Origin: a bacterium
GTDB lineage: Bacteria > SM23-81 > DAOVCL01
DNA: 40,381 bases
NCBI GenBank assembly: GCA_029932675.1
Contig: JAOZPP010000023.1
Span: forward strand, 1 to 40,381
Direction of reading: 5' to 3'
Position 1 is the stretch's first letter, and the number at the start of each line of letters is the position of its first letter. The notes below the pieces were generated by a model, which saw only the letters and a list, made by a program, of their open reading frames with translations, was not told the origin of the DNA and did not search any database. Positions 27,594 through 40,015 of this stretch are shown piece after piece. Position numbers and translations under genes: made by a program.

Positions 27594-27773
27594 TTAGGGA
27601 AGATCGGACTGGGCCTGGGAGAGGTTGTGCAGGAGGTCCATGACTTCCGCCTCAGCCCTCTTCAGGTATCTAAGGAGATCATAGCCCTGGGCCTCCCTCT
27701 TGGCCAAGCCAAGTTCATAGTGAAGCCTATGGCCGAGCTCAATGCACTCCTCTATCCGATCGCTGAGGGTCAA
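27594..27773 (-). CDS. Small helical protein coupled to the activase gene
   Basis: A 59-codon frame beginning at a TTG that overlaps the activase stop codon (TTGA). It reads MTLSDRIEECIELGHRLHYE, LGLAKREAQGYDLLRYLK, RAEAEVMDLLHNLSQAQ and ends SDLP. The composition is that of a charged alpha-helical protein, and the tight overlap argues for a real co-translated gene. I do not recognise the family; it may be a partner or folding factor of the activase-related protein. Confidence 0.55.
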   Translation of the reverse strand: MTLSDRIEECIELGHRLHYELGLAKREAQGYDLLRYLKRAEAEVMDLLHNLSQAQSDLP

Positions 27774-30700
27774 CTCTTTTCCCGGCTTCTTTTAAACCCT
27801 TTTGCCTGGTGAATGAAGGCCTCCAGCCTTGTCTGGGCAGTGGCCTCCTCTAAGCCATCATAGGCCATATCTATCCAAGGTAAGCCCTGCAAGTCTTCCC
27901 GCAGCTTTTTGGATACAGAGCTCACGATGGTCCCCGGCATACAGGTAAAGGGCATAGCATTCACTATCCCCGAGGCCCCTTTGCGCACAAAATCTATAGC
28001 TTTCCCTACGGTGAGGATAGCCTCCCCCCCGAAGCTGTAATGGAAATAGGGACTTGCCAACCCAATTATCTCCTCGGTAGTAGGTTCCTCTCCATCCCTT
28101 AACAGCTCACCGGCCGGCTTATAGATCTTTCTCTCGCACCATCTCTGAATCATATCCTGCAGGTAGCCCTTCAGATAGCTTAAATACCTCCCTCTCGCCT
28201 TTGCCCTATATTTGAACATAAAGTTGGTATAGAAGATCCACTCACAGAAGGGGGCTAACCGGGCCTCCCCCCCCAACGATTCTATCCTCTTAATTATGTT
28301 GTTGTTGGAGAAGGGGTTTGATCTTATATATATCTCCCCCACTACCCCGATAATTGGTCTGTCCCCGTCCTTAGTGGTTTTGATGGCCCCAAACTCCCTG
28401 AGACATCTGCGCAGGGCCTCTCCTATGCTTCCCTTAGCCTCCACAGTCCGACAAACATCCTGGAGAGATTGGAAGTAGACCGACTCCGTGCTCCCCTTCT
28501 CCTGCTCATAGGGACGGAGGTGGTGGAGGAACTTTTGTAAGAGGTCAACAGCCAACATCCCCTCCCAAGTGCGGTAGCGAAAACCTGCATCCACACCGCC
28601 GAAATCATTGTAGGAGGTCTCGGAATCGGGTGAGACAAGGGGAACATCCTCATAGCCACACTCGTTGAGAATCACCCTGTGGAGACGATTATATTGCCCA
28701 AATCGGCAAGGCCCTTCCGCCTTGGGCATAAAGAAGGCCGTTTTCTTGGGATCAAAGCCCGGGGATCTGATCATCCTCACCAGTTCGCCAGTGGTCAGGA
28801 TACAGGGGAAACACTCCCTTCCCGAGGTGTATTTCCTCCCCAGCCGGAGGGACTCCTCATCAGGGGGGGGCATCACCTCCGCCCTGATCCCACAGGAGCG
28901 GAGGCCAGCTTTGAGGACATGGGCGTGATCACACATATAGGGGATGTACAGGGTGCGCCCTCTCCCATTGGTGGAAACGATTTGGGGGAAAGCCTTAATC
29001 CTTTTAGGTTCAGCCCTATAAGATTTTAAGCTATCTAAGAAGGCTTCACACCTGGTAATCACCCCAGCATCTGCAGAATGTTCGTCTATTTCGATGAGAA
29101 GATAGGGTTTACCCCTCATCTCTTCCCGGAAGAAATGAGTAATGAATGAGTCTGCCCCACAACCGAAGTTTGTCAAATAAAGGGCAAATAGCCTGCTATC
29201 CTGTGAGATGAGCTTGGCAGCACTCATTATCCTTTGGCCATACCTCCAGTACATATCCGAGTATCCATTTGATAGATCCACCGACTCCAGGGGGAGGAGA
29301 TCCATCGGTATGGGTAAAACCCCTAACCTCCTAAGCTTCTTGGGGAGATCAAGGTTAACCCCGGAGTCACAGCCGTTGTAGGGACGGCTAACGATGACCA
29401 CGGCCTTCCCCCCCTCAGATAGCTCCTCCAAGGCCTGGCGGCCTAAGGAGAGAAGCTTGTCATAAAACCTCTCCTGAGCTGCCTCGGCCTCCGCCATCGC
29501 CTCCCTAAGCTCGCGGGGGGACCTACCCAACTGCCTCCCAAACCTGACAAGTTCCCTCTCCCTATACTTCCTCTCCCAGTGGAAATGGAAGGGGGGAGAG
29601 AGCAGCTTGGATGGATAGGGGGAGAAGTCTATGGCCGAACGGATAATATAGGGAATGGCCTGGACATAAGGGCAGTTGTAGCTCTGCTTTAAACCCTGTT
29701 TTGAGGGCATGTCGATTATGCTGGGCAAGAAAATGTAGTCAACTCCCTTCTTCAAAAGGTCAAGGATATGGCCGTGGGTGACTTTGATGGGGAAGCAAGT
29801 CTCTGCGGTAACCGCCTCCAGCCCTTCGTTGATTATCCCTTTGTTCGTTGGATCGGAGAGGACAACCTGGAAACCTAATTTAGCAAAGAAGGTAGCCCAA
29901 AAGGGAAGCAGCTCATGAAAGTGAAGAGCATAGGGCAGACCCACCTTCGGGCCATCACCCTTTGGGACCTGAGTGTAGGCCTCCAATAGGGCCTCCTGGC
30001 GAAGGGCAAAAAGGTCAGGTAAGTTGTATTCCTTCCACTCCCTCTTTACCTCATACTTCTCGCAGCGCCCCCCATAGTAGAGGGGATCTTCGCCCTCTAA
30101 TTTCACCACTTTGATCTCACAACGATTTGGACACCCCTTGCATTCGAATGAGGAGAGTTCATAGCTTCGTTTGCTCAAGTCGAACCCTTTAAACCTGCTC
30201 TCCCCCTCCCCCTTCTCCTCCATGGCCAGGATGGCTGCCCCGATGGCACCGGTGACATCATGATGGGGAGGAACGATAATGGGCTTTCCGGTCACCTTCT
30301 CAAAGGCCGCCACCACCCCCTTATTCCAAGCCACCCCTCCTTGGAAGAAGATCCTCTCCCCCACCCTCTTTCCAGCGACCACCCGGTTAAGATAGTTATA
30401 GACAATGGAGTAAGCCAAGCCGGCTACCAGATCCTCCTTCTTGGCTCCAGCCGACTGATGGGCCACGAGGTCAGATTCGATAAAAACAGTGCATCTCTCC
30501 CCTAAGTTGGCGGGGGATTGGGCCCTGAGGGCCTTCTCCCCGAACTCCTCCACGATGTTAAAGTCAAGCCTCTGGGCTTGTTCCTCCAAGAAGGAGCCGG
30601 TGCCTGCAGCACATACCTTGTTCATCTCGAAGTCAACTACCGCCCCATTCTTCAGGCTGATATACTTTGAATCCTGTCCCCCAATCTCGAAGATGGTATC

Positions 30701-31924
30701 CACCTGGGGATCAATCTCCACCGCTGCCCTCGCTTGAGAGGTGATCTCATTACGCACCACATCTGCACCAACGAAGTCACCAATCAGATATCTCCCCGAG
30801 CCAGTAGTACCTACCCCCGCTATCCTTACCTTACCCCCTATCTCCTCCCCAATCTCAGAAAGGCCTCTCTTCACTGCTTCTATGGGCCGTCCAGCGGTGG
30901 GGAGATACCGGCGGGCCAAAACCCTCTTCTCTCTATCGATCACCGCCAGGTTGGTGGAAAGTGAACCCACATCTATCCCCAAGTAAGCCTCGGTTGGTTC
31001 CTGAGGAGGGGTGGCCACGGTCTCTGCATACCTTTTCCCTGCTGGGTTATACCTCAACTTCTCCAACCCCTTCTTTAATTTAGGCCTCCCCTGTAGATGA
31101 GCACGTAGTTCCCCCAACCCAACAAATCCGGCCCCTTTCTCCCTGGCTATCAGCCCGGCTCCGATGGCCCCCAAGGAGGCGAAATGATCAGGGATGAACA
31201 GTTCCCCTTCCTTAAGCTCCAAAACCCTTTCGAAGGCCCGCACCATTCCTAAGTTGGCAGCCACTCCACCTTGGAATGATATCGGTTTGGTAAACCTCTT
31301 TCCTTTAGCTATGTTGCTCTTAAAATTCCTGGCTACAGCCAAACAGAGGCCGGCCACGATATCATAATCAGGGGTCCCTATCTGCTGGAGGTGGATCATA
31401 TCCGATTTGGCGAAGACCGAACAGCGGCCAGCTATCCGCGGTGGATTTTTAGACTTGAGGGCCAGTTGAGAAAACTCCTTCTCTATGGATAACCCCAGCC
31501 TCTTGGCCTGTTGATCTAAGAAGGAACCGGTTCCCGCAGCGCAGAGGGTATTCATGGCAAAATCCTCTATGATGGATTCCTTTATCCTCCGGTCATATCT
31601 GAGGAGGATAAACTTGGAGTCCTCGCCGCCCATCTCGATGACCGTGCGGATCTGAGGATGGTATCTACCCATCGCCTTGGCCAAGGCCACAACCTCGTTG
31701 ACAAAAAGGCCCTCTAAGAGTTCGCTTAAGGGCTTTCCTCCACCACCAGTAATCCCTGCCCCCATTGGAGAATCGGGGAGAACCTCTAAGACACTAAGGG
31801 CGGTGGCTAAGAGCTGGCCATGGTGTCTGGTGTAGTCCTCCCAGAGGACTTCTCCATCCTCGTCCAGAAGGACTGTATTAACCGAGACCGAACCTATATC
31901 TATACCCAGATATACCGATTTCAT
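27770..31924 (-). CDS. Giant 2-hydroxyacyl-CoA dehydratase activase-related protein (double BcrA/BadF ATPase + DUF2229)
   Basis: A 1,384-residue protein. Two ASKHA ATPase domains of the BcrA/BadF/HgdC type stand in tandem: residues about 1-265 (YLGIDIGSVSVNTVLLDEDG, MGGEDSKFI, CAAGTGSFLDQQA) and about 315-570 (YLGIDVGSLSTNLAVIDRE, IGGQDSKYI, CAAGTGSFLEEQA). Each contains the cysteine that in HgdC-type activators binds the inter-subunit [4Fe-4S] cluster. A cysteine cluster follows (FECKGCPNRCEI, GGRCEKYE), then a DUF2229/dehydratase-like region (ETCFPIKVTHGHI, YNCPYVQAIPYIIRS, SGRECFPCILTTGEL). Activators of this class use ATP to inject an electron into radical dehydratases, but the function of these long fused forms is not established. 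Typical of anaerobes. Confidence 0.92.
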   Translation of the reverse strand: MKSVYLGIDIGSVSVNTVLLDEDGEVLWEDYTRHHGQLLATALSVLEVLPDSPMGAGITGGGGKPLSELLEGLFVNEVVALAKAMGRYHPQIRTVIEMGGEDSKFILLRYDRRIKESIIEDFAMNTLCAAGTGSFLDQQAKRLGLSIEKEFSQLALKSKNPPRIAGRCSVFAKSDMIHLQQIGTPDYDIVAGLCLAVARNFKSNIAKGKRFTKPISFQGGVAANLGMVRAFERVLELKEGELFIPDHFASLGAIGAGLIAREKGAGFVGLGELRAHLQGRPKLKKGLEKLRYNPAGKRYAETVATPPQEPTEAYLGIDVGSLSTNLAVIDREKRVLARRYLPTAGRPIEAVKRGLSEIGEEIGGKVRIAGVGTTGSGRYLIGDFVGADVVRNEITSQARAAVEIDPQVDTIFEIGGQDSKYISLKNGAVVDFEMNKVCAAGTGSFLEEQAQRLDFNIVEEFGEKALRAQSPANLGERCTVFIESDLVAHQSAGAKKEDLVAGLAYSIVYNYLNRVVAGKRVGERIFFQGGVAWNKGVVAAFEKVTGKPIIVPPHHDVTGAIGAAILAMEEKGEGESRFKGFDLSKRSYELSSFECKGCPNRCEIKVVKLEGEDPLYYGGRCEKYEVKREWKEYNLPDLFALRQEALLEAYTQVPKGDGPKVGLPYALHFHELLPFWATFFAKLGFQVVLSDPTNKGIINEGLEAVTAETCFPIKVTHGHILDLLKKGVDYIFLPSIIDMPSKQGLKQSYNCPYVQAIPYIIRSAIDFSPYPSKLLSPPFHFHWERKYRERELVRFGRQLGRSPRELREAMAEAEAAQERFYDKLLSLGRQALEELSEGGKAVVIVSRPYNGCDSGVNLDLPKKLRRLGVLPIPMDLLPLESVDLSNGYSDMYWRYGQRIMSAAKLISQDSRLFALYLTNFGCGADSFITHFFREEMRGKPYLLIEIDEHSADAGVITRCEAFLDSLKSYRAEPKRIKAFPQIVSTNGRGRTLYIPYMCDHAHVLKAGLRSCGIRAEVMPPPDEESLRLGRKYTSGRECFPCILTTGELVRMIRSPGFDPKKTAFFMPKAEGPCRFGQYNRLHRVILNECGYEDVPLVSPDSETSYNDFGGVDAGFRYRTWEGMLAVDLLQKFLHHLRPYEQEKGSTESVYFQSLQDVCRTVEAKGSIGEALRRCLREFGAIKTTKDGDRPIIGVVGEIYIRSNPFSNNNIIKRIESLGGEARLAPFCEWIFYTNFMFKYRAKARGRYLSYLKGYLQDMIQRWCERKIYKPAGELLRDGEEPTTEEIIGLASPYFHYSFGGEAILTVGKAIDFVRKGASGIVNAMPFTCMPGTIVSSVSKKLREDLQGLPWIDMAYDGLEEATAQTRLEAFIHQAKGFKRSREKS

Positions 31925-33870: not shown

Positions 33871-33899
33871 TTGACAAAAGGAGATTGATCCACTATATT
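33871..33899 (+). promoter_or_regulatory. Promoter of the riboswitch-controlled giant-protein transcript
   Basis: TTGACA, 17-base spacer, TATATT, giving a start near 33906, about 40 bases before the c-di-GMP riboswitch. The sequence GTTGACAAAAGGA and the TGATCC in the spacer are shared with the DUF433 promoter about 740 bases upstream. Confidence 0.7.
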
Positions 33900-33944
33900 A
33901 ACTGCAGAATAGATTATTTTTCTTCAACGATTTCGTGGTCCTTT

Positions 33945-34042
33945 GAAGGTTCTGATAAAGGTAAACCCCAAGTGATTGGGGGACACAAAGCTACGGGTCA
34001 TATCCGGAACTTGGATATATGACAGCCGGGCTGCCGAAGGGC
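33945..34042 (+). promoter_or_regulatory. c-di-GMP-I (GEMM) riboswitch
   Basis: The sequence follows the class-I c-di-GMP aptamer closely. AAAGGTAAACC leads into a hairpin CCCCAA-GTGA-TTGGGG whose loop is a GNRA tetraloop (33972-33975). Then come the conserved GGACACAAAGCTACGGG, a second hairpin GTCAT..ATCC / GGAT..ATGAC, and the receptor-side CAGCCGGGCTGCCGAAG. In known members the ligand sits at the junction between the two docked helices. It lies between a good promoter and the 1,888-aa protein gene. The 3' strand of the aptamer overlaps a terminator stem, which predicts that c-di-GMP binding prevents termination (an ON switch); that direction is inference. Confidence 0.88.
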
Positions 34043-34067
34043 CAATCTGAGGCAGGTCGGTTTTTTT
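34026..34067 (+). terminator. Riboswitch-linked intrinsic terminator
   Basis: CCGGGCTGCC (34026-34035) pairs with GGCAGGTCGG (34051-34060; one G-U, one G-G mismatch) followed by seven T. The 5' arm is part of the aptamer's CAGCCGGGCTGCC, so aptamer and terminator are mutually exclusive. Confidence 0.75.
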
Positions 34068-34085
34068 GTTTTCGGTACAATACAC

Positions 34086-34167
34086 TGAGTCTCCAGGTGA
34101 TCAAGTGATTTGATGAGGAGCCAAAGTGTGGAAACTACCCGGGCAGTAGACAATTGATCAAGACTCA
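34086..34167 (+). ncRNA. Second structured leader domain, class unknown
   Basis: TGAGTCT (34086-34092) pairs with AGACTCA (34161-34167), and after a five-base bulge (CCAGG) TGATCAA (34098-34104) pairs with TTGATCA (34154-34160). Inside, CTAC (34135-34138) pairs with GTAG (34146-34149). It lacks the GEMM consensus, so it is not simply a second identical aptamer. It may be an expression platform or a different ligand-binding element. Confidence 0.5.
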
Positions 34168-34218
34168 CACCATCAGTGGGGGTGGGTTTGCTGTGCAGGA
34201 TGTAGGGCCTGTAAGCCG

Positions 34219-34270
34219 AAGGCACAACCGAGCACCCATTTAAGGGCGGTGGGTACAGTTGTGCCTTTTT
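34219..34270 (+). terminator. Second leader terminator
   Basis: AAGGCACAAC pairs with GTTGTGCCTT, with ACCCA/TGGGT inside, followed by a run of T (34264-34270). It is 79 bases before the giant gene's ATG and would attenuate the transcript a second time. Confidence 0.75.
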
Positions 34271-34348
34271 GCTTAAAAATTCCATCGAGCTCAAGAAATT
34301 CACTGATATGTGGTGATTTATGCGTCTTCTCTTAAACAAGGGGGGAAA

Positions 34349-37300
34349 ATGAGAAGCGAGCATAGAAGTGCGTTCAAGATAGTTATTTTGCTATCTTGTA
34401 TTATGGTATTTACACCAATGGGTATTCTACATTCGATGGAGAGGATAAGTGAACCTAACATCTTGCCCCGAGAGGAAACAAGAAAAGCCGCTGAAATTCT
34501 ATGTCGTTCTGTTTATGGGGCCAAACAATTGTACGATACTGTAACATATTTTGATGTAGATGGAGAACGCTCTTGTGATGTATATATTTTCGCAAAGAAC
34601 AACCGGTGGTTAAGTCAAAAAGGGGCGCTTTTAGATTCTATCTATGACCATAGGCGAATCTTGTTTGCATATGTTGATTCAATTCGGAATATAGATGAAT
34701 ATATTGGAGATAAATCAAAGAGGCAAGATGAGCTGCGACATTATCGCCAGATGACAGATTACCATCTTAAGATGTCAACGCGTCCTCATGATTTTATTTC
34801 AATTTATACCTCTGCTTCCAGGAATCATAAGCCCGTATTGGAATATAGGAAAGGTTTACCGGAGAGTTATGTTATGAAATATGACATTGAGCAGATTTAT
34901 CTAGAAAGGAAAGGAGTTGTTCCTTCTAAGCTTGAATTTTACTACTTTGGACCAATCAGAACTTATGTTGCAGATGCAAATTCTGACAAGCACACATTAA
35001 TTAGTGTGGACAATCCCGACGTAGAGCTAACTAACAATGATATCGGGGACTTCAGATTTAATTATACGACTCTGGACTCATGCTATCTTCAAAACTTAGA
35101 TAAATCCTGGTCCAACATTGAATCAATGAGTATGCAGGAAGTTCTACAGAAAAACTATGGTTCTATCAAGAGTCCCCCTCATGTGATATCAAATGTCCCC
35201 TATTTCAGACAATTTGATTGGGAGAATATCTTTCCCAAATTGGGCTGTTGTGTGGTAATGGCAGTGGGAAGTGTTCTTGGTTATTATGACCAGAAAGGTT
35301 ACTGGAGTATTTGTCCTTTTGCCTCGCATACTGGGAATGAACCAAACTTTGCCAACTACTCGGATGGGGGATTCGAAAGCTTTAGTGGTGAGAACTATTT
35401 TGGTACCGACTGCGGTTGTGTTGTACATTTTGGGCCAGAAACCATGCTATATGAAATAGCCCAAGATGTGGGTTATGATTTCACCTCAGGACGAGGTCCT
35501 AGCATCAGCTGCACCGGATTTAACCAGTTACCGGGTTTACTTCGCAATTATACTAATGATCGGTTGGGGTTAGACTTTGATTACGATCAGAAGTGTTATT
35601 GGGGCGGAGCAAGTTATAATACAATCAAGGATAGTATTGATTATAGTAGCCCTATGTTGTTGTTGGTCACAAATTATTCCTGGACAAGTTCCGAAGGACC
35701 CTATCCCGACTATATAGGTCCCCACCTTGTCGCACTAATTGCTTATGATGAGAATCACTGGGTTGGAGGAGATGCCATTGGAGTATACGTAAATGGTGCT
35801 ACCATCTATGAAATAGTGTGGTGGGATTATGATCAGATTAGAAGCGACAATGACGAGTTAACTGTAGAAATAGGTCCTGGAGGTTCATGTGGCAGTTGGA
35901 TTGACCCCCCTGCGGCATATTCACCTTTGGGTGATGTTTCGGAAGGCATTATAAACTTCTCCTGGGAGGACGTGGATGCAGCGCTTTACAGGATTCAAGT
36001 GAGTAAATATTCTGATTTTTCAACATATTTAGACGGTTTAGATTTTTATTCAGATGAAACATCAGTAGACATACCTATGGATACACCGGGGACCTATTAT
36101 TGGAGAATTGCCCCTCAAAATAGCAGTGGGAACTGGTGTCATTTCGGAGCTACTAATCAATTCACCATAGTAAAATCAGAAATAGTCAATGACCCGGGAA
36201 ATGGAATTTGGTTAAGCAAAGATTACTGGCCTGATCATATCAATGAGTTTGAAAATATTTGCACTGAGTTACAATCTCATCGAATTCAACATATATACTT
36301 TGATATCGGGAATTTTGATAACGAAACCGGCATATTTGACGACGCTGAAGATTATTTACACCCTGCAAATTATGATAACCTCATGAGGTTAATACAAATC
36401 GCTCATAACTATGGGTTGGCTATGATTGCCACGGTAGGAGATGGTGATGAAAGCAATGGAGGATTAGAAGGTGGACTTGTGGATATTACCAATTCAACTA
36501 TTAGAGATTCTGTAAGAGATATTTGCATCGATTTAATCGATTCCTACCATTTTGATGGAGTTCAACTCGATCTGGAACCAATCCCATCGATCAATCATAA
36601 TCCTTCAGTATATATATCATTTTTGACGCTATTAGACGACATAAACCAACAATGGTATCATAAGAACGTGCTCTCAGTAGTAACCCCAAAATGGGGAAGT
36701 TCCTCTTTATGGTGGTGGGATGAAGACAGTTATGCCTCCCTTGTTATGACATTATCAGATTTCCCAATTGCTCAGATAACCCCGATGGAATATGACTATG
36801 GGTATAGTGGCCCTGACAGTTTTATGCTTAAGGTGACTGAGATGACGGAAACACTCCTGGATCTAACCTATGGATATCCAAACATTAGGGTGAATATAGG
36901 CCTGCCTTGTTATGAAACATCACTTTACCACGACGATACCGTTGAGAATCTATTCTTCGGACTTAGTGCTGTGTGGTCGGCAGATAACCTTGCGCAGAGT
37001 AACTTCGAAGGGGAGAGTATATTTAGATATGAGTATGTCCACAGCGGTGCTCTTTCTTGCGGCTGGGATGAGTGGGATGAGTTACGTTATGACGATATTA
37101 GGGGAGGTTTAAAATGGCTTGAATATCAACAGGATACGGATGGTTCTTGGTCGGACAATGTGGGAACAACCGCCCTGGCGGCATTGGCTTTTCTGAATTA
37201 CGGGTATAGGGAAGAAGAGTCCGAACCCGTTGAGAAAGCCATTAGATATATTCTTTCAAATGTCCAGGAAGATAGCTCAATTTACAGTGCTGGCACTCCA

Positions 37301-40015
37301 ACTTATGAAACAGCCTTAGCAGTATTAGCTCTATTTGCTACGGAGAATGCGCAGTACAATGAGATTATAGTCAATGCGAGAAACTGGTTAGTGAGATCTC
37401 AATGGGATGTGAACTGTCTTTGGGGAAGTATTGATCCAGACAATTGGTTATATGGAGGATTTGGTTATGGTGATCCAGGCGAGTGGGCGGATTTATCTAA
37501 TACACAGTTTGCCTTGATGGCCTTAAGTCCTAAGAAACCACCTGATATTCCGGAAGTCGCACCTGAAGTCTGGACTAAGGCAAGAGTTTTCATAGGGCGT
37601 TGCCAAAATGATCCGGATTATAACGATCGGCCCTGGGCTCACGACAGTAGCCAATCTTCCTATGATGACGGTGGGTTGGTGTACACTCCTGGAGGTGGCA
37701 CGTCATACGGTAGTATGACTGCTGCCGGAATCTGGAGTTATCGGCTTTCTGGGGTTCAAGTCACGGATGAGAGGGTGAGACACGCCTTGGAATGGATGGA
37801 ATCATATGAAGACTGTTCTTTTGATGATAATCCTAATGAAGGGTCAAGCTGGCTATATTATTACTATATGACCATAGCAAAGGCTTTGGTCATGTGTCAA
37901 GTGAGCCAACTTAACGGTCACGACTGGTATTCAGCTTTGAGCAATAGGATTCTGGCTCTGCAATTGAATGACGGTCATTGGGAGGGCTCCTATACTTCTG
38001 AGACCACTACCGCTTTTGCACTGTTAGCCCTTGAAACAAAGGTTCCGCCGCCGGGAGATCTATGGATGAGTATCATATTGGAATCACTGGTTCCCGATTC
38101 TGAGAGAATGTTAGATCCTTGTGCTGATTTACATGTATACGACCCCGAGAACAGGCATTTAGGAATGAACTATGAAACCGGACAGATGGATACTTTAATA
38201 CCGGGAGCAACCCTGACTATTGATCAGGATGGTCGACAAATCGCCGTTTTTAAGGACATTGAAAAGGGAACTTACCATGTGGAGGTGATCGGATTGGACA
38301 GTTGCAATTATTCAGTTACCTTTCAGAGTCATAGAGACACATTCACAACTTCTTCGGAGACTTTTGAAGATAATATTACACCTGGTGAAACAGCAGCAAC
38401 TGATGCAATTGTTTCCTCAATATTTGGTAGTCTGGATATTAATGTGGAACCACCCAGACCAATTCCTGGCGGATTGATGGCTTTGTCTAGGAATGAGTCT
38501 ATAACGCTGCAGTGGAACGCAGTAGATGATGCGCTTGGTTATAAATTATACTACGACAGAGATGAGTCGGGTCCGCCTTATACCGGAACCGGGGCCAATC
38601 AGGGGCCTTCTCCAATAGATGTCGGGAATGTTACGAGCTATGAACTAACCGGGATAACCAATTATGCCACCTACTATATCTGCATTACAGCGTATGATAG
38701 CTTCGGTAACCAGACAAGTTATTCTGCGGAGGTTCTGTGTATACCTGGATTTACACCATTTGATGTTTGGATTACCTCTGAGGACATTATTATCTCCCCT
38801 GAGAGTGTTTATCCAAACAACTGGATGGACCTTGCTGCTATTGTCCATTGTGATTCAGCTTCTCTGCCCGTCGACAGCGTGGAAGTCTATTTTTACGACG
38901 GGAAACCAGATTCCGGCGGAATTCAGATCGGCGATGTACAAATGGTCTACGGTCTTACTCCCACTACCCCTGAGACCGTTCAGATAGCTTGGGTCTTTCC
39001 TGATACAACTTGCCACTACCTATACGTGAGAATTGATCCAAACAATCAACTTGAGGAATGGGATAAAGAGAACAACCAAGCTTGCCTGCTCATTCTGCCC
39101 ACTGTGCCAGCTATCGTTGAGCTGATTCCAGATACCCTCGGTCTGACTCCCGGCCTTCCTCCAGTTGAATGCTACATCGAGCTTCCGAATGATTACAAGT
39201 TGGAGGGCATTGATGAGGTTACCCTAAGCGGATGTACAGACGAATACTTAGAACCCTATCCCGACCCTTGGCAGATCGGTGACTATGATGGCGACGGAAG
39301 ACCAGATCTCATGGTACCATTTGATCAGCTAGCTGCCTTGAGGATAGTTGATCCTTATCACTGTGGCGTGGCTACTGTGAGGGGTTCTGTGTCCGGCCTC
39401 CCACCCTATGAAGAATTTACTTTGGGTTTCGAGGGAAGGGATACGCTCCAGGCCGAAAGCCTCGGCGGATGCATCTGTGGCGTGGTGAGCAGGGTTGATA
39501 ACCAAGAACCGATTTCAGGGGTTATGGTCCAGATCCTCAAAGACACACTGATAGTGGGGGACGACACCACCACTGGCGATGGCTATTATAGCGTCACCTA
39601 TGTTCTTCCGGGCAGCTATGAGGTCTTGGCCTCAAAGGAGGGTTATGACAGTTTGAGCGCACTCGGGGTGGAGAGTATAGAGGCCGAAACTACTGTAGTC
39701 AACTTTCAGCTTTCTGGATTTAAACCTGGGGAAAGAGAGGTAAGGATTCCAAAAATCTTCAGCTTAAGTCAGAACTACCCCAACCCCTTTAATCCTATCA
39801 CCGAGGTCAAGTATGCTTTACCGAGGGATTGTTGGGTGACGTTGGAGGTCTACAATATCTTAGGTCAGCGGGTGGCAACTCTGGTGGAAAAAAGTCAGAG
39901 AGCCGGCTACAAAATCGCGAAGTGGGATGCAAGCTCCTTCTCCAGCGGGATCTACTTCTATCGGATTCAGGCTGGGGACTTCGTGCAGACCAGGAAAATG
40001 ATTCTATTGAAATAG
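34349..40015 (+). CDS. Giant multidomain T9SS-secreted protein: C39-like peptidase, GH18-like barrel, alpha/alpha toroid
   Basis: 1,888 residues from the ATG behind AAGGGGGGAAA, with a signal peptide (AFKIVILLSCIMVFTPMG). Residues about 280-507 resemble a C39-like cysteine peptidase (catalytic Cys in KLGCCVVMAVGSVLGYYD, C300/C301; His459 in GPHLVALIAYD). About 519-607 is Fn3-like. About 614-910 resembles a GH18-type TIM barrel (FDGVQLDLEP; D736, D741, E743 present, Gln739 replacing the middle Asp). About 911-1230 is an alpha/alpha toroid with prenyltransferase/cyclase-type repeats (QQDTDGSWSDNVGTTALAAL, QLNDGHWEGSYTSETTTAFA). Then Fn3 (1369-1465), CARDB-like (1470-1583), a carboxypeptidase-regulatory-like domain (1704-1790) and the T9SS signal (1801-1888; QNYPNPFNPIT). 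Codon use is more AT-rich than its neighbours. Substrate unknown; polymer or cell-wall degradation is possible. Confidence 0.85.
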   Translation: MRSEHRSAFKIVILLSCIMVFTPMGILHSMERISEPNILPREETRKAAEILCRSVYGAKQLYDTVTYFDVDGERSCDVYIFAKNNRWLSQKGALLDSIYDHRRILFAYVDSIRNIDEYIGDKSKRQDELRHYRQMTDYHLKMSTRPHDFISIYTSASRNHKPVLEYRKGLPESYVMKYDIEQIYLERKGVVPSKLEFYYFGPIRTYVADANSDKHTLISVDNPDVELTNNDIGDFRFNYTTLDSCYLQNLDKSWSNIESMSMQEVLQKNYGSIKSPPHVISNVPYFRQFDWENIFPKLGCCVVMAVGSVLGYYDQKGYWSICPFASHTGNEPNFANYSDGGFESFSGENYFGTDCGCVVHFGPETMLYEIAQDVGYDFTSGRGPSISCTGFNQLPGLLRNYTNDRLGLDFDYDQKCYWGGASYNTIKDSIDYSSPMLLLVTNYSWTSSEGPYPDYIGPHLVALIAYDENHWVGGDAIGVYVNGATIYEIVWWDYDQIRSDNDELTVEIGPGGSCGSWIDPPAAYSPLGDVSEGIINFSWEDVDAALYRIQVSKYSDFSTYLDGLDFYSDETSVDIPMDTPGTYYWRIAPQNSSGNWCHFGATNQFTIVKSEIVNDPGNGIWLSKDYWPDHINEFENICTELQSHRIQHIYFDIGNFDNETGIFDDAEDYLHPANYDNLMRLIQIAHNYGLAMIATVGDGDESNGGLEGGLVDITNSTIRDSVRDICIDLIDSYHFDGVQLDLEPIPSINHNPSVYISFLTLLDDINQQWYHKNVLSVVTPKWGSSSLWWWDEDSYASLVMTLSDFPIAQITPMEYDYGYSGPDSFMLKVTEMTETLLDLTYGYPNIRVNIGLPCYETSLYHDDTVENLFFGLSAVWSADNLAQSNFEGESIFRYEYVHSGALSCGWDEWDELRYDDIRGGLKWLEYQQDTDGSWSDNVGTTALAALAFLNYGYREEESEPVEKAIRYILSNVQEDSSIYSAGTPTYETALAVLALFATENAQYNEIIVNARNWLVRSQWDVNCLWGSIDPDNWLYGGFGYGDPGEWADLSNTQFALMALSPKKPPDIPEVAPEVWTKARVFIGRCQNDPDYNDRPWAHDSSQSSYDDGGLVYTPGGGTSYGSMTAAGIWSYRLSGVQVTDERVRHALEWMESYEDCSFDDNPNEGSSWLYYYYMTIAKALVMCQVSQLNGHDWYSALSNRILALQLNDGHWEGSYTSETTTAFALLALETKVPPPGDLWMSIILESLVPDSERMLDPCADLHVYDPENRHLGMNYETGQMDTLIPGATLTIDQDGRQIAVFKDIEKGTYHVEVIGLDSCNYSVTFQSHRDTFTTSSETFEDNITPGETAATDAIVSSIFGSLDINVEPPRPIPGGLMALSRNESITLQWNAVDDALGYKLYYDRDESGPPYTGTGANQGPSPIDVGNVTSYELTGITNYATYYICITAYDSFGNQTSYSAEVLCIPGFTPFDVWITSEDIIISPESVYPNNWMDLAAIVHCDSASLPVDSVEVYFYDGKPDSGGIQIGDVQMVYGLTPTTPETVQIAWVFPDTTCHYLYVRIDPNNQLEEWDKENNQACLLILPTVPAIVELIPDTLGLTPGLPPVECYIELPNDYKLEGIDEVTLSGCTDEYLEPYPDPWQIGDYDGDGRPDLMVPFDQLAALRIVDPYHCGVATVRGSVSGLPPYEEFTLGFEGRDTLQAESLGGCICGVVSRVDNQEPISGVMVQILKDTLIVGDDTTTGDGYYSVTYVLPGSYEVLASKEGYDSLSALGVESIEAETTVVNFQLSGFKPGEREVRIPKIFSLSQNYPNPFNPITEVKYALPRDCWVTLEVYNILGQRVATLVEKSQRAGYKIAKWDASSFSSGIYFYRIQAGDFVQTRKMILLK

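Follow-up and report, generated by a model that had tools for sequence, protein, structure and literature searches.

A predicted class-I c-di-GMP riboswitch ahead of a T9SS cargo gene, and an apparent set of diverged relatives in the same lineage

In class-I c-di-GMP (GEMM-I) riboswitches of the Vc2 type, the ligand is contacted by G20, A47 and C92 (PMC4744006, PMC11218506). Vc1, found upstream of gbpA in Vibrio cholerae, is a c-di-GMP-I element that acts as a positive regulator of a secreted chitin/GlcNAc-binding protein (PMC4744006). Bc1 of Bacillus thuringiensis is a c-di-GMP-I element with a long expression platform that includes two intrinsic terminators; its target, mcpE, is of the chemoreceptor type. 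Bc1 binds c-di-GMP but expression is unchanged, the response being hidden by the second terminator (PMC11218506). The window analysed here (the whole stretch of 40,381 nucleotides) carries an element that resembles the Vc2 type (RF01051) in aptamer fold, GNRA tetraloop, the three contact bases and family score. It differs from that type in its target (a type IX secretion system, T9SS, cargo gene), in its host (an FCB-type candidate lineage) and in a terminator, T1, one arm of which is shared with P3/P1. Unlike that of Vc1, the target encodes a T9SS-tailed protein that has a GH18 domain, and control is predicted to operate through an overlapping intrinsic terminator. The two terminators are separated by about 150 nt, versus 28 bp in Bc1.

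The element fits well in a known riboswitch class; what is unusual about it is its target. It is predicted to be a c-di-GMP class-I riboswitch that acts as a transcriptional ON switch (antitermination) for the T9SS cargo gene (probability about 0.85). The features of the locus are given in the table.

Table. Features of the leader and of the T9SS cargo gene (positions in the window; T1 and T2, terminators)
Feature	Positions	Strand	Basis
Sigma-70-type promoter, TTGACA-17-TATATT	33871-33899	+	11/12 consensus matches
c-di-GMP-I (GEMM-I) aptamer including P1	33948-34043	+	RF01051 and RF03167 matches
P1, GGUUC paired with GGGCC	33948-33952 with 34039-34043	+	Other complementary pairs in C103 and G003 (by eye)
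P2 hairpin, capped by GUGA (GNRA) tetraloop	33966-33981; loop 33972-33975	+	Rfam consensus structure
G, ligand-contact base equivalent to Vc2 G20	33960	+	Rfam alignment
A, ligand-contact base equivalent to Vc2 A47	33987	+	Rfam alignment; c-di-GMP-I-GGC consensus has G
C, ligand-contact base equivalent to Vc2 C92	34034	+	Rfam alignment
T1	34024-34068	+	5' arm 34024-34035 is the P3 3' strand; loop contains the P1 3' strand
Inter-terminator leader (the purported second structured domain)	34080-34215	+	Unsupported
T2 with U tract	34221-34270	+	z -3.8 against shuffles; also in terminator scan
T9SS cargo gene, ATG at 34349, 1888 aa	34349-40015	+	Pfam; NCBIfam TIGR04183
GH18-like domain	36260-37012	+	PF00704, E 1.2e-8, 35.5 bits (cut-off 29.6)
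T9SS type-A C-terminal sorting domain	39776-40003	+	TIGR04183, 40.9 (cut-off 23); PF18962, 37.3 (cut-off 27)

By family score and canonical bases, the stretch 33950-34039 qualifies as an aptamer of the class-I c-di-GMP (GEMM-I) type. The sequence-only reading had named beforehand the lack of a significant RF01051 match as an outcome that would refute it. The genome search gave a match far above the cut-off (72 bits against 35, E 4e-14 per genome, 33950-34038, + strand). In the Rfam scan of the window, c-di-GMP-I-GGC (RF03167) was matched with 68 bits against a cut-off of 59 (33951-34039, + strand); this is the sole RNA exceeding any family cut-off in the window, where no tRNA was found either. 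The Rfam label with the lowest E-value is c-di-GMP-I-GGC; RF01051 gives more bits. The name GGC probably denotes positions 20, 47 and 92. The G at the 47-equivalent that the GGC consensus and, on this reading, its name call for is an A (A33987), so the element belongs under ordinary c-di-GMP-I. The register of P1 is weak and G-U rich, and in the minimum free energy (MFE) fold the aptamer faces competition from an alternative 5' pairing.

The expression platform overlaps the aptamer through 34024-34035. T1 has an MFE of -21.3 (z -3.0 against shuffles). Since T1 uses the aptamer's own 3' strand, the ligand should block termination (ON switch). In folds of the growing transcript, the aptamer with an extended P1 is present at 34045-34055 and T1 from 34060 onward. 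Once T1 is complete, a fold in which the aptamer is forced is 16-21 kcal/mol worse than the T1 fold, so control would have to be co-transcriptional. In the proposed sequence of events, RNA polymerase would start just past 33899. If c-di-GMP is bound during leader synthesis, P1 and P3 would retain the strand 34024-34043; T1 would then be blocked and transcription would proceed toward the T9SS cargo gene. In the predicted ligand-free state, that strand would pair with 34051-34062 and transcription would stop at T1. T2 would form a second obstacle, which could be constitutive or lifted by a further factor.

T2 (MFE -23.7) looks like a real terminator. A candidate antiterminator partner of its 5' arm lies at about 34175-34198 (-20.8 kcal/mol), a pairing equalled by 7-8% of shuffles. 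Cross-pairing between the aptamer/T1 region and T2 gave no signal. The leader between the terminators had been described as a second structured domain. It was rejected as a defined element: 34080-34215 has no excess stability over dinucleotide shuffles (z +0.27), matches nothing in Rfam at E values up to 5 and has no relatives detected in its own genome or in five close genomes. The other parts of the description (promoter, GEMM-I aptamer, GNRA tetraloop capping P2, T1 built on the aptamer's 3' strand, T2, a very large secreted multidomain gene) all agree with the present analysis.

The cargo gene is a single open reading frame. Its product has a signal-like N-terminus (by eye) and includes GH18-like, alpha/alpha-toroid (squalene-cyclase-like), fn3/CARDB-like and CarboxypepD_reg parts and the T9SS tail. 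The GH18 motif, DGVQLDLE, keeps the position of the catalytic Glu, and Gln replaces one Asp; the domain weakly matches PDB 3cz8 (YdhD). The protein had been called peptidase/glycosidase-like. For the glycosidase part, the GH18 profile is above its cut-off; the peptidase part comes down to a sub-threshold match to Peptidase_C39_2 (PF13529; 19.4 against 24, E 0.0016). Used as a query in the named genomes, the protein found no relatives. In whole-genome searches, mainly the C-terminal module (residues ~1480-1888) and the T9SS tail recur. On the opposite strand of the window, positions 27770-31924 encode a 1384-aa BcrAD/BadFG-type CoA enzyme activase with DUF2229.

The shared strand and the terminator arm were combined in one pattern (GCCGGGYTGCC...GGYDRBYCGGYTTT), with which four genomes were scanned. 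Six occurrences were found, in three genomes, and none for the reversed-pattern control: C85 (the element of the window), C84, C103 and C105 in this genome (G000), C62 in its congener (G001) and C70 in a relative from the same phylum (G003). In these six elements, 100% of cells pair over the 11-bp T1 helix, versus at most 61% when it is slid; the six sequences are related, so this pairing is not independent covariation. P1 was found, by eye, to be swapped for other complementary pairs in C103 (GAUUC/GAAUC) and in the G003 element (ACAGAC/GUCUGU). C105 and C103 are preceded by a promoter identical to that of the window in both hexamers and in the spacing of 17. C105 lies 132 nt ahead of a gene for a T9SS-tailed FG-GAP/cohesin protein of 1044 aa, with no scanned second terminator before it. 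C84 is followed by a PIN-type toxin gene, then by a gene for a 1766-aa T9SS-tailed protein. G001-C62 is followed by a gene for a 606-aa T9SS-tailed protein. The genes downstream of C103 encode a PqqD protein, a 408-aa T9SS-tailed protein and a radical SAM/SPASM protein, in this order; this operon, in which the last protein would be the maturase, is a possible peptide-modification cluster. C103 itself (L112:4410-4760, minus strand) consists of a GEMM-I aptamer with an insertion of about 240 nt in P3, then a shared-strand terminator.

Other targets bear on the ligand. HD-GYP-type and prepilin-like genes are classical c-di-GMP targets. The G003 element is located upstream of an HD-domain (HD-GYP-type) gene, and a GEMM element of G002 upstream of prepilin-like genes (named by eye from translation); both support c-di-GMP as the ligand. 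In this G002 element (C84, L017/L134), the terminator does not overlap the aptamer.

These data can be set against three alternatives. The aptamer could belong to the c-di-GMP-I-GGC variant group and sense a different ligand, such as another cyclic dinucleotide. The lowest E-value, that of RF03167 with its score above cut-off, agrees with this, but such a ligand is very improbable: RF01051 gives the higher score, A replaces the model's G at position 47, the Vc2 contacts G20 and C92 are kept and the relative in G003 lies before an HD-GYP-type gene. G20 also speaks against the c-AMP-GMP type (GEMM-Ib), which has A20.

The two other alternatives concern T2. T2 is strong and, by analogy with Bc1, the nearest precedent, could mask readthrough of T1; this is the chief challenge to a regulatory role of the leader. 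The leader would then bind c-di-GMP without regulating the gene, T2 terminating regardless. This decoupled state is unlikely although it draws on the stability of T2 and on the same succession of aptamer, T1 and T2 in Bc1, which binds c-di-GMP and in which T2 dominates (PMC11218506). Against it, the strand sharing of T1 is conserved across species, C105 lacks a scanned second terminator before its gene and the ~150 nt between the terminators would leave room for antitermination at T2, even if the candidate pairing is not significant. Conversely, an always-on terminator would silence the gene, which could mean that 34066-34270 acts as an antiterminator or as a second riboswitch in its own right, giving two-input control. 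A partner for the 5' arm of T2 is indeed available and C2, another leader of this genome, is in tandem before its own T9SS gene. This organization is nonetheless rather improbable given the frequency with which shuffles equal the pairing and the lack of excess stability, Rfam match and relatives for 34080-34215. An ON switch operated by c-di-GMP at T1 is the preferred reading.

Leaders directly before T9SS-tailed genes are C85, C105, C2, C11 and C3 in this genome and C62 in the congener. Counted were the class A, class B and canonical elements for which enough sequence was available downstream: C85, C105, C103, C2, C11, C109, C84a, C84b, C3 and C93a. The first same-strand gene is T9SS-tailed for 5/10 (C85, C105, C2, C11, C3) and the second gene is for C103; all six tails are above the TIGR04183 cut-off. 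The background is about 4% (~110 tails, i.e. 118 P0001 matches of which some are other domains, for an estimated 2,600 genes). The binomial chance for 5/10 is near 4e-5, a rough value, given that class A elements (see below) are closely related paralogues and that the number of genes is itself an estimate. Counter-examples are C109 (short ORF and sigma-54 activator downstream), C93 (short toxin-like ORFs downstream) and C90 (some 950 nt ahead of an operon that looks pyrR-like by eye). The proposed link to T9SS output is strengthened by the other leaders before T9SS-tailed genes, with the qualification that what the window element would control is transcription of one cargo gene, not secretion itself.

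Six loop-trimmed sequences served to build a covariance model for the 3' half (P3 and terminator arm), which was run over six genomes. It retrieved about ten further elements in G000; apart from the window element, only one reaches an Rfam cut-off. Beyond the training set, C19, C84b, C2, C11, C34 and C109 have E below 1e-6, C3 and C46 have E below 1e-3, and C93 and C90 are weaker. C120 (E 2e-11) and C57 (E 0.009) were found in G001; nothing below E 0.2 came from G002, G003 or the two remaining genomes. The model recovers C103 weakly (E 0.1) and misses the G003 training element, probably because of its long P3. The newly found elements reach no family cut-off in Rfam. The top match of C105, G001-C62 and G001-C120 is a sub-threshold one to c-di-GMP-I or c-di-GMP-I-GGC (25-28 bits); the tested elements of classes A and B give no such match.

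The classes were defined by eye. Class A: C2, C11, C19, C34 and C109, with G001-C62 bridging to canonical GEMM. Class B: C84a, C84b, C3 and C93a/b, in which a UCCCGAU...AUCGGGA-type stem replaces the usual base of P2. Class C: C90, C78, G001-C57 and a tandem copy upstream of C2. Descent of class A from GEMM, via G001-C62, is well supported. Similarity limited to the 3' half suggests the same origin for classes B and C. C2 (G000, L157:1050-1222 and 1405-1600) is made of two different tandem leaders that resemble the GEMM 3' half, a class C element followed by one of class A. Both have a shared-strand terminator of their own, and the pair lies ahead of a T9SS cargo gene of 1794 aa. C90 (class C; L174:315-467) is located upstream of an operon of pyrR/pyrB/pyrC-like genes. 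Five unrelated loci (L165, L167, L168, L169 and L170) carry near-identical cassettes of ~230 nt, each with a promoter, an aptamer-like RNA and a terminator; similarity stops just outside, as for a duplicated regulatory unit.

The genome has equipment for both c-di-GMP signalling and T9SS export. Five GGDEF domains above cut-off are encoded by G000, and GGDEF proteins are found in 4/4 genomes (G000 and three relatives). SprA is present in the same four genomes (SprA_N, E 1.4e-37 in G000) and in 0/14 control genomes. The P0001 search of the genome gave ~118 matches, mostly T9SS tails. The closest SecA (69%) comes from a metagenome-assembled genome called Candidatus Zixiibacteriota, which fits the FCB-type host that had been proposed. 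Three other genomes of the phylum appeared in the searches, one of them (G001) of the same genus. The congener has no RF01051 match at E<=0.001, only diverged elements. Among 21 other genomes reached via named loci, mostly of FCB-type phyla, one has an RF01051 match; it is labelled Omnitrophota. A combination of GEMM and T9SS was not seen in other lineages: GEMM loci of ~3 kb from a 60-genome sample contained no T9SS-tail motif. This null is weak because such loci are short; at that size, the long T9SS genes of the present genome escape the test as well.

None of the papers searched deals with a connection of c-di-GMP riboswitches to T9SS, and the regulation of T9SS cargo is, to our knowledge, poorly understood outside Bacteroidota. 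The main interest of the locus lies in the apparent regulon and in the diverged, Rfam-invisible relatives of its element. Among the related leaders of the genome, several of them located before other T9SS cargo genes, the window copy is the most canonical; it thus marks the canonical extreme of what appears to be a riboswitch regulon for T9SS cargo, specific to this lineage. More tentatively, and with chances slightly short of even, these leaders could form a genus-level, expanded family derived from GEMM-I and mostly invisible to Rfam, in which the 3' half and the shared-strand terminator are kept and P2 or P1 is rebuilt. Jointly, they would constitute a cyclic-dinucleotide regulon, possibly with an altered ligand, for T9SS-exported surface proteins. 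If so, several c-di-GMP-type leaders would tie lifestyle signalling to part of the secretome by RNA alone, and the lineage would offer a natural series of diverging aptamers for studying how riboswitches change or lose their ligand.
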